Source: Deinococcales bacterium
Lineage (GTDB): Bacteria; Deinococcota; Deinococci; Deinococcales; JAAFIG01
Length of the DNA: 64,000 nucleotides
NCBI GenBank assembly: GCA_013298595.1
Contig: JAAFIG010000002.1
Span: 124,001-188,000, forward strand
Direction: 5' to 3'
Within the stretch, counting starts at the first letter, position 1. Each line of letters opens with the position of its first letter. Below are positions 11,219-18,039 of the stretch, piece by piece. The position numbers and the translations under genes are program-made. The notes beneath the pieces are model-generated. The model was not told where the DNA came from, searched no databases, and worked only from the letters and a program-made list of their open reading frames with translations.

Positions 11219-14200
11219 ATGCGCGACTTTAGCAAAGTAAAAATTCAACTTGCCAGCCCCGAGAAAATCCGTTCTTGGAGTTATGGTGAAGTCGAAAAAC
11301 CAGAAACCATTAATTACCGTACACTCAAACCAGAACGTGATGGTTTGTTTGACGAGCGGATTTTCGGACCTGAAAAGGATTACGAATGCGCTTGCGGTAA
11401 GTACAAACGTCAACGTTATGAAGGTAAAGTCTGTGAGCGTTGCGGTGTCGAAGTGACTAAACGCATCGTGCGTCGTTACCGCATGGGACATATCGAACTT
11501 GCTACGGCAGCTGCCCATATTTGGTATGTCAAAGATATTCCAAGTAAAATTGGTACCTTACTCGACCTCAGCGCTGGGCAACTCGAGCAAGTCTTGTACT
11601 TTGGTAAGTTCATTGTGACCGATCCACAAGGTGCAATTAAAGATGGTCGCCCACTGAAAAAAGGCGAGTTGCTTTCCGACGAAGAGTACCGCGAACTACG
11701 CATTGGTAAGCAAGAAACGTATTCTTTACAAGTTGGAACCCATGCCGAAGTGCGTGACGGAGAATACGTCACTCGAGGACAAAAACTCGGTGGCAATGTC
11801 GTCTCGAAAATGGATGGTGTTGCCCAGTATCGTTTCCCACGCAAAGCAACCCTCGAGTACGCTCGAGAAGGCGAAGCCAAATTCACACTGCCAAAAGGTG
11901 TGACCATTGAACTCGAAGCTTTCCGAGCTGGCGAAGAAATTTGTGATGGCATTGAAAATCACAGTATTCTAGCCACTCGAGATGGTGTGATCAGCATTAC
12001 CGAACTTGGCGAAGGCTTTGGTCGTGGTGGTGTGATTATCGAAGTCCAAGACCCTGAAGATGCCCAAGTGCTCGAGCGTGTCTTTGTGCCAATGGGCTTT
12101 GAAGTGCTGGTTGGCGATGGCGAAAGTGTCGAATCTGATACCGAACTCGCCCAAGCCAATGGCGATTTAATTCGTATGCCCCGTGGTGCAAATGCCAGTG
12201 CTGTCAGCAGCAAAAAACGTGGTTCTAATCTCGATGTTTCCTTGACACTGCACTGGAATCTCGAGAAAACCCTCGAGATTAACCCAACCATGCACGTCTT
12301 GGTTGGCGATGGCGCAGAGTTTAGTGCTGGTGACCGTTTAATTGGTGCCATAGACCCATCCCAAGAAATTATGGCAGAAGCTGATGGTACATTAACACTG
12401 CAAGAACCAGCCAGCATCATTGTTTCTCGAGCAAAATTGTACAAATACGAAGATGAACCGATTGTGGTCAATGGCGACCGTGTTGAACCAGGCGATGACT
12501 TGGCAGACAAAGGCAATCTCAAATCCGAAATTCATGGTCGTATCGAAATTGATTTGGTACGTCGTCAAGTGCGCGTTGTTGAAGCTTACGACTTTGAAGC
12601 TCGCATGGGTGCAGAAGCCATCAAGCAATTGCTAGAAGGTATTGTTCTCGAGACCCTCGAAGCCGAATTAAACGAAGAAATGACCAACCCAAGTCGCCAC
12701 AAACGAGCCAAAGCCCGTAAGCGTCTCGAGGTGGCTCGTGCTTTCCGTAAGAGCGGGAATCGCCCAGAGTGGATGATTCTTGACAGCGTACCTGTGATGC
12801 CGCCAGATTTGCGTCCGATGGTGCAAGTGGATGGTGGGCGTTTTGCGACTTCAGATTTGAACGATTTGTACCGCCGCTTGATTAACCGCAACAACCGTTT
12901 GAAGAAGTTAATGACCACGGGCGCACCAGAAATGATTGTTCGCAACGAAAAACGCATGTTGCAAGAAGCTGTAGATGCGCTGATTGACAATGGTCGTCGT
13001 GGTACTCCAGTCACCCACCCAGGTTCAGATCGAGCATTACGTAGCCTCACCGATTTACTTGGTGGTAAACAGGGTCGTTTCCGTCAGAACTTGCTTGGTA
13101 AACGCGTAGATTACTCTGGTCGTTCGGTGATTGTGGTTGGTCCACAATTGCGTTTACATCAATGCGGATTGCCAAAACGTATGGCACTCGAGTTATTCAA
13201 ACCATTTTTGTTTAAAGTGCTCGAGGAAAAAGGTGTTGTTACCAACATCAAGCAAGCCCGTAAGCTGCTCGAGCGTTACCGCGACACCCGCGACGAAATT
13301 TGGGATGCCTTAGAAGAAGTCATCCAAGACAAAGTGGTGCTGTTAAACCGCGCACCGACCTTGCACCGTCTTGGTATTCAAGCTTTCACCCCAGTTTTGG
13401 TTGAAGGTCAGGCTATTCAATTGCACCCACTGGTTTGCGAAGCCTTCAACGCCGATTTCGATGGCGACCAAATGGCAATTCACGTACCACTCTCGCCATA
13501 CGCCCAAGCAGAAGCTCGAGTACAAATGCTTTCGGCACATAATTTGCTTTCGCCTGCTAACGGCGAACCAAACGTCAAACCAGCTAAAGACATTATTTTA
13601 GGTATTTACACCCTGACCCAACCACGCCCAGGCAAAGTTGGTATGGGCAGTAAATTCAAAGATCAAGAAGAAGTCTTAAAAGCCCTCGAGAAGAACAAAG
13701 TTGATCTGAACTCTCGCATTGTTGTTGGTGGCAGAGAAACCAGCGCAGGCGCAATTCGCCATATCTTTGGTAATCTCGATGAAGCCTTACATGCAGTACA
13801 ACGCGGCGAAATTGACACCCAAGACAGTGTTTCAATCCGCTTAGATTTAGTCAGTGGCTCAGAGATTATTGAAACCACCACAGGACGGGCATTGTTCCGT
13901 CGTATGGTCAACGAAACCATCACCGAAGATGGCAGTATCCTATCTCGAGAATACGTCAACCTGACCACCACCTACGGCAAGAACCCTTTGACCGAAATGG
14001 TGATTGATATCTTCAAAACCATGGGTGTGGAAAAAACTGCTGCGATTCTTGACGCACTCAAATCCAATGGTTTCAAACTCGCCAGTACCAGCGGCGTAAC
14101 TGTCGGTATTGACGATGCCATGATTCCACCCGAGAAAACCGAATTGCTGCGAAAAGCCGACCTTGAACTCGAGCAAATCCGCGAAGATTCAGACCTTGGT

Positions 14201-15808
14201 TTGGTCACCGAAGAAGAACGTTACCGCCAAGTGATTACCTTGTGGACAAACACCACCGAGGATGTCACCAACGCTGCCTACGCCAACTTTGAAAAGCATT
14301 ACCCACTCAACCCGTTCTACGTCATGAGCCAATCAGGTGCCCGTGGTAACAAACAACAACTCCGCCAACTCATGGGTATGCGCGGATTGATGCAAAAACC
14401 AAACGGCGACACCATCGAACTCCCTGTACGCGCCAACTTCCGCGAAGGTCTGAACGTGCTCGAGTACTTCACCAGCACCCACGGTGCACGTAAAGGTGGA
14501 GCTGACACGGCGCTTCGTACCGCAGACTCGGGTTACTTAACCCGTAAGCTTCACGATGTTGCCCACGAAATTGTCATCCGTGAACCAGACTGTGGTACAT
14601 CCGATTACTTAACAATACCGCTGCTCGAGGATGGTAAACAACGCAAAGCTGGCGATATCGAAATGGGCTTATATGGTCGTCACCTCGGCGCTGACCTCGA
14701 GATTGGTGGCAAAACCCTCGAAGCTGGCTTGTTACTGAACACCGACGAAGTCAAATTTATCCTCAAACACCGCGAGCAACTGGCAGGTGTACCAGTTCGT
14801 AGTCCAATTACCTGCCGTACTCGAGCTGGCGCTTGCCAAAAGTGCTACGGTTTTGACCTTTCACAAGCCAAACTTGTTTCCAAAGGCGAAGCTGTTGGTG
14901 TGATTGCCGCGCAATCCATCGGAGAACCAGGCACACAGCTAACCATGCGTACCTTCCACACAGGTGGTGTAGCAGGTGCCCAAGACATCACCCTTGGTTT
15001 GCCTCGCGTTGTTGAACTTTTCGAGGCTCGTAAGCCAAAAATCAAAGCCACACTCTCGGAAATTGATGGTATCGTCTCCATCGCTGATGAAGACGGCAGC
15101 GATAAGATCATCCTGACTGTGACTGACAACGACCTTGCCAAGAAATATAAAGTCGAACGCAATACCCGTTTGTTAGTCCGTGAAGGCGACAAAGTCGAAG
15201 CTGGTCAAGTCATGACACGCGGTGCAATCAACCCAGAAGACTTACTCGACTCCAAAGGTGTTGAAGCAGCCCAACGTTACCTCGTAGATGGTATCCAACA
15301 AGTGTACCGTCAACAAGGCGTGAAAATTCACGACAAGCACATCGAATTAATTGTCAAACAAATGTTCAAATACGTCGAAATCCTCGAGGATACAGGCGAT
15401 AGCGAATTCCTCGAAGGACAAGTACTCGAGAAATTCGATGTTGAACGCGAAAACGAACGACTCGAAGAAGCAGGCAAAAATCCTGCTTCATGGAAACCAA
15501 AACTCATGGGTATCACCAAGAGCGCTTTATCCACCAAGTCGTGGTTATCAGCAGCCAGTTTCCAACACACCACTCACGTACTCACCGAAGCCAGCGTCAG
15601 CGGCAAAGTAGACGAACTGATTGGCTTAAAAGAAAACGTGATTCTAGGCAAACTGATCCCAGCGGGAACAGGCTTAGCCGAAGTCAAAGAAATTCAAGTC
15701 ATGGACGACCGCCTCCGCGAGAAAGTACTCGAGGGCAACGACCGAGCAACCCGCCTTGCCCAGAGCGGCAATGCAAATATGCCACAAGCACCAGCTGGCG
15801 ACGATTAA
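11219..15808 (+). CDS. rpoC: DNA-directed RNA polymerase subunit beta-prime
   Basis: 1529 aa, the long Thermus/Deinococcus type. The N-terminus [20 protein letters not shown] and the zinc-binding [14 protein letters not shown] come first. A non-conserved insertion of beta-sandwich repeats then extends to roughly residue 510. The core resumes with [16 protein letters not shown], and [10 protein letters not shown] (about residue 744) binds the catalytic Mg. The bridge/trigger region includes [20 protein letters not shown], and [16 protein letters not shown] lies near the C-terminus. The last ~48 codons are repeated, diverged, at 16635-16781 beyond a xisH-xisI insertion, so the present 3' end may have been swapped in by that element. 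A strong terminator follows. Confidence 0.98.
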
Positions 15809-15827
15809 AACCCGTTATAAGCTCAAG

Positions 15828-15857
15828 AAACCCCCAAGCCGTAACTTGGGGGTTTTT
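15828..15857 (+). terminator. rpoC terminator
   Basis: An 11 bp stem (AAACCCCCAAG / CTTGGGGGTTT) with a 6 nt loop runs into a T stretch 20 nt after the rpoC stop. Confidence 0.85.
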
Positions 15858-15877
15858 GTGTTTACAGACAACACTGC

Positions 15878-15883
15878 TATACT
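15878..15883 (+). promoter_or_regulatory. Leaderless-type -10 box of xisH
   Basis: TATACT ends 6 nt before the xisH ATG. The xisHI pair therefore has its own promoter, downstream of the rpoC terminator. Confidence 0.5.
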
Positions 15884-15889
15884 TTTTAT

Positions 15890-16309
15890 ATGGCTCGAGA
15901 CAAATACCATCAAGCCGTAAAGACAGCCCTGCAAAAAGCTGGTTGGAACGTCACCCATGACCCATTGCGCTTACAAATAGAAAGTATTCCAGTCTTAATA
16001 GACCTTGGAGCGGAACGACTGATTGCGGCTGAACGCAACGATGAAAAAATTGCCATTGAGATAAAAACATTTGGTGGAAACTCAGACATCAACGATTTTC
16101 ATGTAGCGCTTGGACAATACCTGAACTACCAAGTTTTTTTACACGAAGCAGAATCAAACAGAACTTTGTTTATTGCTGTGCCTGAAGATACTTGGTTTGA
16201 TTTTTTTCAAAACCGAGTGATTCAAAAAATTTGTCAGCAACACAAGATTCGTTTCTTGGTCTACAACTCGTTACTCGAGGAGGTTATCTTATGGACATCC
16301 AGCAGTTAA
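15890..16309 (+). CDS. xisH: XisH-family protein, PD-(D/E)XK nuclease-like
   Basis: 139 aa, normal for the XisH family, first described as controlling factors for fdxN element excision in Anabaena. The start (MARDKYHQAVKTALQKAGW) and VLIDLGAERLIAAER are typical. The residues D (VLIDLG), ExK (IAIEIKTF) and Q..Y (LGQYLNYQ) give a plausible PD-(D/E)XK active site, so a DNA nuclease role is likely but inferred. It overlaps xisI by 19 nt. The pair is inserted between two copies of the rpoC 3' end. No integrase or fdxN-like element is present, so excision control is unlikely to be its job here. Confidence 0.85.
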   Translation: MARDKYHQAVKTALQKAGWNVTHDPLRLQIESIPVLIDLGAERLIAAERNDEKIAIEIKTFGGNSDINDFHVALGQYLNYQVFLHEAESNRTLFIAVPEDTWFDFFQNRVIQKICQQHKIRFLVYNSLLEEVILWTSSS

Positions 16310-16626
16310 GAGAAATTATTCAAAAAACCCTAAAAGAATACGCTTCCATACCAAGCATCAATTCTACAAGTCAAGACCGTCTGATATTTGACACCAATGC
16401 AGATTCGTACCAATGGCTGAGTATGGGTTGGAATGGAATGCAACGCATTTTCAATGTCATCATCCACATTGAAATTCGTCAGAACTTGGTGTGGATTGAA
16501 CGCAACAACTCGAGTATCGAAATTGGTGAAATTCTAGTCGAGCAAGGTGTTCCAAGAAACCAAATCGTACTGGCATTCCATGCGCCATACAAACGTGGTT
16601 TACACGGTTATGCAACAGGCGAGTAA
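16291..16626 (+). CDS. xisI: XisI-family protein, partner of XisH
   Basis: 111 aa from an ATG preceded by GAGGAGG, which itself overlaps a CTCGAG. The sequence is typical XisI: MDIQQLREIIQKTLKEY, FDTNADSYQWLSMGWN, IHIEIRQNLVWIERNNSS and the C-terminal LVEQGVPRNQIVLAFHAPYK. XisI normally accompanies XisH and may be its partner or control subunit; the biochemistry is unknown. Translation is probably coupled to xisH by the 19 nt overlap. The stop lies only 8 nt before homology to the rpoC tail resumes, so the cassette ends almost exactly here. Confidence 0.88.
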   Translation: MDIQQLREIIQKTLKEYASIPSINSTSQDRLIFDTNADSYQWLSMGWNGMQRIFNVIIHIEIRQNLVWIERNNSSIEIGEILVEQGVPRNQIVLAFHAPYKRGLHGYATGE

Positions 16627-16634
16627 AGTGAATT

Positions 16635-16781
16635 CCAGCAGGAACGGGTTTAGCCGAAGTCAAAGAAATTCAAGTCATGGATGACCGTCTGCGCGAGAAG
16701 GTACTCGAGGGCAATGACCGTGCGGCAAGGCTGGCTCAAAGCGGCAGCGCACAAATCCAAGCCCCTGCTGGCGATGATTGA
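16635..16781 (+). pseudogene. Second copy of the rpoC 3' end (48 codons plus stop)
   Basis: This stretch translates as [20 protein letters not shown] and on to QAPAGDD-stop, in frame and open. It matches rpoC codons at 15659-15808 except for a one-codon gap. Nearly all differences are synonymous; amino acid changes are confined to the last variable residues (T to A, N to S, and NMP versus QI). It has no start codon or ribosome site, so it is not a gene by itself. Mostly silent divergence means both copies spent a long time under selection as real rpoC ends, which argues against a recent tandem duplication. Weak similarity may extend back to about 16625. Confidence 0.85.
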
Positions 16782-16814
16782 AGAATAGAATTTGCTCGAG
16801 ATGAAGAGATTAAG

Positions 16815-16852
16815 AACCCGCAAGTCACAGCTCGGGGGGTTTGGTTTGACTC
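16815..16852 (+). terminator. Degenerate terminator after the second rpoC tail
   Basis: AACCCGCAAG and CTCGGGGGGTTT occupy the same place relative to the tail as the real rpoC terminator and share its skeleton, but pair poorly. It looks like a decaying copy, now inside a spacer. Confidence 0.4.
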
Positions 16853-16881
16853 GAGATGACAATGAAAGTACAGTTCAAGAT

Positions 16882-18039
16882 ATGGAAAAGCACCTAGAAA
16901 AAAAGAATAAGAATAAGAATGAGAATGAGTTTAACTGGAAGGGATGCTTGGTCATCTTTTTCGTGAGCTTGCTTGTACTGCCTTTTTTTGCAGTTCGTAG
17001 CCAAGACTCACTCCCACAAGTCAATATCGAAACCGTGGCGGCAAGTGACCATTCGTTGGTGGTCCGTTCAGATGGTGCTTTGTGGGCTTTTGGAGCAAAT
17101 GAATCGGGGCAATTGGGCATGGGTACAACGGAAAACCAACTGAAACCTGTTCAAGTCATGACTGATGTCTCGAGTGTCGCGGCTGGTGGTCACTCGTTGG
17201 TTTTGAAGTCTGATGATTCTTTATGGACGTTTGGTCGCAATAATGTATGGCAACTTGGCGATGCAACCAAGATCAATAGGAGTAAACCAATACAAATCAT
17301 GGGCGATGTCATCAATATTGCTACGGGTGCTGCTCACTCTTTTGCGATTAAAAAAGATCGTTCTTTATGGGCGTTTGGATTCAATAATCAAGGGCAGCTT
17401 GGAGATGGTACAACTAACAGTCGGGGAAAGCCTGTCAAAATCATGGAAAATGTAGCAGAAGTTAGGGCAGGTGTTTTTATCTCCCTTGTCTTAAAACTGG
17501 ATGGTACACTTTGGTCTTTTGGTCAAGGAGGGTATTTGGGTGATGGTACTCTTAAGCAACGCCAAAAACCCGTAAAAGTGATGGAAAATATCATCAAGAT
17601 TGGAACAGGTGATTTTCATTCTTTGGCGTTAGGCAAAGACAAAACGCTTTGGGGATTTGGCTTGAATTACTATGGACAACTTGGTGATGGTACAGATATT
17701 CAGGGGTGGATGAAACCAATTAGAATCATGTCCGATGTTTCATATGTCAGTGCTGGTTCTTATCATTCCTTAGTTATAAAAACGGATGGCACGCTTTGGG
17801 CATTTGGTAGAAATGATTTTGGTCAGCTTGGAAATGGGACAAACATCAATCAAAGAAAGCCAGTCAAAGTTATGGATAATGTTGCTTTTGGAGCAGCAGG
17901 TAATATGTACTCTTTGGTAACAAAAACAGATGGTTCGTTGTGGGCATTTGGACAAAACAAGTTTGGACAACTTGGAGATGGGACAACAATAAACAGAAAT
18001 CAACCTGTTCAAATTTTGACAGATGTACGAATCCCCTAA
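16882..18039 (+). CDS. Membrane-anchored RCC1-repeat protein
   Basis: 385 aa from the ATG at 16882 (an upstream TTG in frame at 16792 is less likely). A charged N-terminus (KKNKNKNENE) precedes one membrane segment (GCLVIFFVSLLVLPFFAV). About seven repeats of ~47 residues follow, each like SLWAFGxNxxGQLGxGTTxNxxKPVxIMxxVxxVxAGxxHS, forming an RCC1-type beta-propeller outside the membrane. These propellers usually bind proteins; the partner is unknown. Only one CTCGAG (17169) falls in the 1.16 kb gene, far below the window average, which suggests recent arrival. Confidence 0.85.
   Translation: MEKHLEKKNKNKNENEFNWKGCLVIFFVSLLVLPFFAVRSQDSLPQVNIETVAASDHSLVVRSDGALWAFGANESGQLGMGTTENQLKPVQVMTDVSSVAAGGHSLVLKSDDSLWTFGRNNVWQLGDATKINRSKPIQIMGDVINIATGAAHSFAIKKDRSLWAFGFNNQGQLGDGTTNSRGKPVKIMENVAEVRAGVFISLVLKLDGTLWSFGQGGYLGDGTLKQRQKPVKVMENIIKIGTGDFHSLALGKDKTLWGFGLNYYGQLGDGTDIQGWMKPIRIMSDVSYVSAGSYHSLVIKTDGTLWAFGRNDFGQLGNGTNINQRKPVKVMDNVAFGAAGNMYSLVTKTDGSLWAFGQNKFGQLGDGTTINRNQPVQILTDVRIP

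Follow-up and report, generated by a model that had tools for sequence, protein, structure and literature searches.

The window analysed here is a stretch of 64,000 nucleotides from contig C12 of a Deinococcota genome (G000), which was compared with a congener MAG, 'WN_Deinococcales_2' (G001). On its plus strand the window contains an intact rpoC gene (11219..15808), which encodes 1529 amino acids and has matches in 40 relatives. The last 50 codons of rpoC and the stop codon (15656..15808, plus strand), fused to the gene and native-looking, form the upstream copy (T_L) of a duplicated gene end and are followed by the intrinsic terminator of rpoC, a hairpin with a T run (about 15824..15860, plus strand). 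Behind the terminator, also on the plus strand, lie xisH (15890..16309; 139 amino acids) and xisI (16291..16626; 111 amino acids), the latter overlapping the end of its partner gene. An orphan copy of the rpoC end (T_R; 16632..16781, plus strand) follows in frame with 49 codons and a stop codon, and behind it a G001-like 3′-untranslated region (UTR) with a decayed terminator (16782..16850, plus strand). This order of features, described in an initial annotation made from the sequence alone, was confirmed by open reading frames (ORFs), Pfam matches, and alignment. Two measurements had to be corrected: the orphan tail starts 5 nt instead of 8 nt after the xisI stop codon, and the duplicated tail comprises 50 (fused) or 49 (orphan) codons instead of 48.

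The similarity of the two tails is far beyond chance (81-82% DNA identity; 125 nt at 82%, or 154 alignment columns at 81%, E=3e-38). Apart from a short indel, the tails differ mostly at silent positions, as had been stated before (20 of the 25 coding differences), and the orphan ends with the C-terminus ...QAPAGDD*. The ORF list contained no integrase or transposase between rpoC and an RCC1-like gene, in agreement with the annotated integrase-less cassette of roughly 1 kb at the rpoC 3′ end.

XisH matched PF08814 as its only Pfam family (170.5 bits, E=3e-50) and XisI matched PF08869 (113.7 bits, E=7e-33), both with a curated cut-off of 25; XisI also matched solved XisI structures (2nlv, E=3e-22). 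The AlphaFold model of XisH (pLDDT 88.5) is nearest to the structures 2okf/2inb (Z about 23) and has moderate fold similarity (Z about 6-9) to EndoMS, a CdiA toxin domain, PaqCI, Hjc, and others, with FokI also among the moderately similar nucleases. The residues D38, E57, and K59, corresponding to a D ... ExK active site, are invariant in 42 divergent homologues. Fold and residues support the PD-(D/E)XK features already noted in XisH, which according to its model is a protein of this fold with a conserved predicted active site.

Several further observations were made in the surroundings of the cassette. The gene of the RCC1-like repeat protein (window 16792-18039) is located directly 3′ of the orphan tail, where G001 instead has an SMC-like gene region of about 6 kb. 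The segment 18185-18866 of the window, on the minus strand and 3′ of the RCC1-like gene, likely encodes a PIN-domain toxin and an AbrB-type antitoxin. The rpoC terminator stem (window 15824-15855) matches the G001 hairpin as its reverse complement (94% over 32 nt), as would result from an inversion of the hairpin. The palindrome CTCGAG, a HIP1-like abundant motif, occurs 379 times in window 1-64000 where about 7 would be expected, and it is common as well in those loci of G001 and G003 that were read.

Origin of the copies at the rpoC and Uma2 loci

An empty site was found in G001, whose rpoC shares 93% protein identity with that of G000, has no xisHI behind it, and possesses a single tail. 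Between both genomes the rpoC body has 81.6% DNA identity, while rpoB and other genes have 70-84%. The fused G000 tail is 82.7% identical to the G001 tail and thus about as similar as the body, which is expected by descent; this observed concordance runs against a strict end-replacement model. The orphan shares 98.7% identity with the G001 rpoC end, whereas 437 body windows of the same length reach 81.5% on average and 92.6% at maximum. On a background of 82%, such a value points to a recent common ancestor with the G001 rpoC end across the species boundary. The G001-rpoC-like sequence starts at AAGT overlapping the xisI stop codon, and the match from 16626 to 16842 has 91.7% identity.

With 98.7% identity to G001 and 81-82% to the fused tail, the orphan did not turn out to be a recent duplicate of the adjacent rpoC. 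Judged by these identities, it is the copy of cross-species origin at rpoC, a polarity opposite to that of the annotation, in which a recoded tail fused to the gene had been imported. A native downstream tail combined with an imported fused tail was dropped as a reading once the 82% background between G000 and G001 had been measured. Simple tandem duplication followed by neutral decay is ruled out by the silent-site bias and the cross-species identity.

The model of an imported upstream copy, which was not supported at rpoC, did fit a second locus of the same genome. Behind a gene of the Uma2 family, G000 carries a target-xisHI-target arrangement with 39 nt repeats, and a search of four genomes gave no further occurrence of this repeat. 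The corresponding locus in G001 (G001:C142) has three xisHI units in an array, of which two have decayed, and the units are separated by this same repeat. The upstream repeat and xisHI share 96.1% identity between G000 and G001, the identity beginning exactly at the repeat, and the adjacent Uma2 gene shares 86.6%. Silent codon differences amount to 7% in xisHI versus 22% in Uma2 (p=4e-5). By this comparison, the transferred block begins at the upstream copy, which sits in the 3′-UTR and moved together with xisHI. For both the rpoC and the Uma2 locus, the identity patterns show transfer between species.

Gene-end copies at further xisHI loci

To what extent flanking repeats accompany xisHI was analyzed with 165 testable pairs from Deinococcales, Cyanobacteria, and Bacteroidota and with 534 shifted windows as controls. 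In a first-pass count, flanking repeats were present at 31/144 pairs versus 12/516 controls (p=3e-13), and the downstream copy started within -15..+25 nt of the xisI stop codon in 15 of the 31 loci. Dispersed repeats were filtered out before the final count, in which unique tight flanking repeats were obtained for 18/165 pairs versus 3/534 controls (p=1.7e-9) and unique flanking repeats overall for 24/165 versus 9/534 (p=1.2e-9). As the signal persisted after filtering, dispersed cyanobacterial repeats were rejected as its source. In over three quarters of the pairs a flanking copy could not be detected, meaning that the duplication either is not obligatory or is frequently lost. The sample consisted mostly of one genome per species with many MAGs, which limits allele-level tests.

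Many of these repeats are gene ends, some are 3′-UTR only, and duplicated gene ends occur in Deinococcota, Cyanobacteria, and Bacteroidota. Other xisHI loci next to duplicated gene ends, which the proposal of a homing element had led one to look for, thus do exist. The tail of the upstream gene is repeated at rpoC, cysS (G120, G133), uvrB (G149), an RND efflux gene (G169), deoC (G003), a DinB-like gene (L106), a TPR gene (L143), and apparently a glycosidase gene (G163). At a dapL-like gene in Roseofilum and a methyltransferase gene in Nostoc, the start of the downstream gene is repeated instead. The names uvrB, cysS, deoC, and gpmI are based on NCBIfam, while dapL, DinB-like, TPR, and glycosidase were read from sequence. 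Cassette and target gene are co-directional in the cases examined, and the 3′ end is the commonest position, the 5′ end being used sometimes. Essential genes, previously proposed as the anchor of the element, are frequent but not sole targets. Among genus relatives of G149 no comparator for the uvrB locus was found. The RND locus was compared with G143, in which the element has decayed by deletion; the three derived changes are all found in the upstream copy, a pattern compatible with either direction.

In Roseofilum G122, a single repeat copy of about 86 nt joins the left flank to the dapL-like gene and spans the junction exactly; in G116 and G123 xisHI lies between two copies, and in G124 and G125 the halves of the locus lie on different contigs, with the break at the repeat. 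Within the Spirosomaceae, 58 of 61 genomes are without XisH at cysS and three have it. G120 and G133 share one cassette at cysS, while in G154 the cysS stop codon is immediately followed by an unrelated XisH, and a second copy was not detected there. Also the gpmI ends in G180 and G120 are each followed by an unrelated xisHI; the recurrence at cysS and gpmI was noticed post hoc. The cassettes at cysS and dapL have for the most part shared the evolution of their flanks, and therefore homing there is not recent.

Some loci have more complex structures. Locus L183 (G116:C141, Roseofilum) is an array of four divergent xisHI pairs with XisH identities of only 47-65%; the units have a common spacer repeat and the same leader sequence, and further small genes are inserted in one spacer. 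In Roseofilum acuticapitatum (L110), two nucleotidyltransferase genes with 98% identity are each followed by a different xisHI. At the Nostoc methyltransferase locus (L075-L078, L092), two alternative upstream flanks exist, switching near the upstream gene-end copy. Together with the breaks in Roseofilum G124 and G125, this flank switch suggests that xisHI sites may act as seeds of rearrangements.

Eight coding copy pairs were pooled for the analysis of substitutions. They differ at 55 of 180 silent sites and at 33 of 633 replacement sites, resulting in a pS/pN of 5.9 (binomial p=5e-16). The excess remains without rpoC (pS/pN 4.5, p=6e-9) and for the closest pairs only (p=2e-6). Drift of an untranslated duplicate in place would not produce such an excess, which indicates that one copy per pair came from, or was converted by, another functional allele. 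By this measure, the two copies diverge as functional alleles do.

Regarding possible vehicles, XisH was found in 0 of 50,697 phage records and gave one match in viral contigs, whereby phage-borne spread was ruled out. Some cyanobacterial plasmids carry xisHI. In the openly readable literature, no report of xisHI with gene-end duplications was found.

Possible routes of movement and comparison with known elements

Elements replacing gene ends are known from earlier work on mitochondria. In the yeasts Torulaspora and Lachancea, the nuclease of WHO elements homes into FBA1 such that the gene remains intact and a 3′ fragment is displaced; its cleavage was demonstrated, and WHO-type insertions at other genes with duplicated 3′ ends were reported (Coughlan et al. 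2020, PMC7282813). The likeness to xisHI concerns several features. The WHO nuclease gene adjoins an essential gene, and xisHI likewise lies between an intact target and a gene-end fragment that has been displaced. The arrays of L183 and G001:C142 correspond to the tandem WHO clusters, in which divergent nuclease genes are interspersed with target fragments. In both systems the copies are diverged alleles, and empty alleles without nuclease gene and fragment are also seen for xisHI. The differences are equally clear: the WHO nuclease is related to inteins and HO and has zinc fingers, whereas XisH has a PD-(D/E)XK fold and is accompanied by a second gene. WHO elements occur in eukaryotes and mainly at FBA1, whereas xisHI is found in bacteria at many gene ends, 3′ and 5′. 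Furthermore, the foreign copy at rpoC is the downstream one, and cleavage by XisH is predicted only. Since the nucleases are unrelated, xisHI is not a member of the WHO family.

The reading we favour, and consider reasonably probable, is that xisHI constitutes a minimal integrase-less mobile cassette of about 0.8 kb with the structure [target end]-xisH-xisI-[target end], which is located at the exact gene end, keeps the gene whole by the second copy of this end, and homes as WHO elements do. On this reading, the cassettes are selfish, end-duplicating elements that probably home. A donor would carry a target-xisHI-target allele. XisH, with XisI as specificity or immunity partner, would break or nick an unoccupied gene end, and homologous recombination would repair the break against the donor, thereby copying in the cassette and one donor gene-end copy. 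The exchange point would decide which copy is foreign: the import would comprise xisHI and the downstream tail from a G001-like donor at rpoC, and the upstream copy and xisHI at Uma2. Serial events or tandem duplication could build arrays such as those of Roseofilum. A strict WHO-like order is possible as well, in which rpoC of G000 earlier took up a G001-like end that was later displaced by the cassette.

A serious rival to homing is plain recombination of DNA taken up from neighbours, as the exchanges could have occurred by ordinary transformation without any action of the nuclease. In a Campbell-type integration, circles with one target copy and xisHI would pop out between the repeats and integrate by a RecA-dependent crossover at a homologous end, with XisH having no role in movement and xisHI being kept for other reasons such as defence or addiction. 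A crossover at either repeat edge would explain the foreign downstream copy at rpoC as well as the foreign upstream copy at Uma2, and the geometry, always target-xisHI-target in one direction, fits. Short repeats (32 nt), however, are poorly used by RecA, and neither the sharing of cysS and gpmI ends by unrelated xisHI nor the occurrence of the pattern with this nuclease family in particular would be explained. We consider the Campbell-type route improbable.

Similarly unlikely, in our estimate, is an insertion with long target duplication, in which a staggered or replicative event would duplicate 30-170 bp of host target and the copies would then drift. It is favoured by direct repeats that are long and variable and by exact empty sites containing a single copy, and such target duplications are attributed to inserting restriction-modification gene complexes (Nobusato 2000, as cited in PMC3031569). 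With these complexes xisHI shares a small nuclease-containing gene pair, the absence of a transposase, long variable direct repeats, and clean empty sites; it differs by having no methyltransferase, its only other gene being xisI (PF08869), and by copies that are gene ends keeping the target whole, diverge silently, and can, as at rpoC, stem from another species. Drift does not agree with copies differing mainly silently although the orphan is untranslated as a gene part, nor does in situ duplication agree with an rpoC copy from another species and an Uma2 upstream copy that moved with xisHI as a block.

It is very unlikely that the cassette is moved in trans by a site-specific recombinase encoded elsewhere, be it XisF-like or of the tyrosine type. 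The xisHI genes would then encode accessory factors, and the gene-end copies would be attachment sites. Integrases commonly rebuild gene 3′ ends, and integrase-bearing islands and prophages resemble xisHI in residing at a gene 3′ end with the gene end on both sides; the xisHI cassette has no integrase, is far smaller, and uses a new target at each locus. XisH and XisI are treated in the literature as helpers of XisF with poorly defined roles, being required for the XisF-dependent excision of the fdxN element (PMC4874684). The Anabaena pair belongs to the same families, PF08814 and PF08869 (structures 2inb, 2okf, and 2nlv). There, however, it assists XisF in excising a larger element, whereas here the cassette itself is the mobile unit, and a profile search for PF07508 (large serine recombinase, XisF-type) gave no match in the G000 genome and none linked to the cassette. 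In addition, each locus has its own target and repeat sequence, whereas attachment sites are fixed, and xisHI without xisF was noted in Beggiatoa (PMC4853749). Hardly credible is a chance duplication of the rpoC tail whose orphan was later converted by G001-like DNA that the cell had acquired. This would account for an identity block confined exactly to the homologous orphan copy, but it needs two coincident events and leaves the recurrence at xisHI loci in three phyla unexplained.

Returning to the homing cassette, a wider claim can be put forward tentatively, at slightly less than even chances: XisH-XisI might be the core of widespread bacterial homing elements, convergent with yeast WHO, in which XisH cuts gene ends, often of essential genes, XisI controls or restrains it, and transfers carry an end copy, whereby rpoC, cysS, and uvrB ends would be exchanged between species. 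These results give a testable function to a large and poorly understood protein pair, present in up to dozens of copies in cyanobacteria and also in other phyla. If homing is involved, xisHI would be the first bacterial counterpart of elements anchored on the end of an essential gene without intron, intein, or integrase; we know of no earlier one. The 3′ ends of core genes can move between species, and gene phylogenies can be misled thereby. The cassette may also represent a compact DNA-insertion system whose target is set by the gene end it carries.
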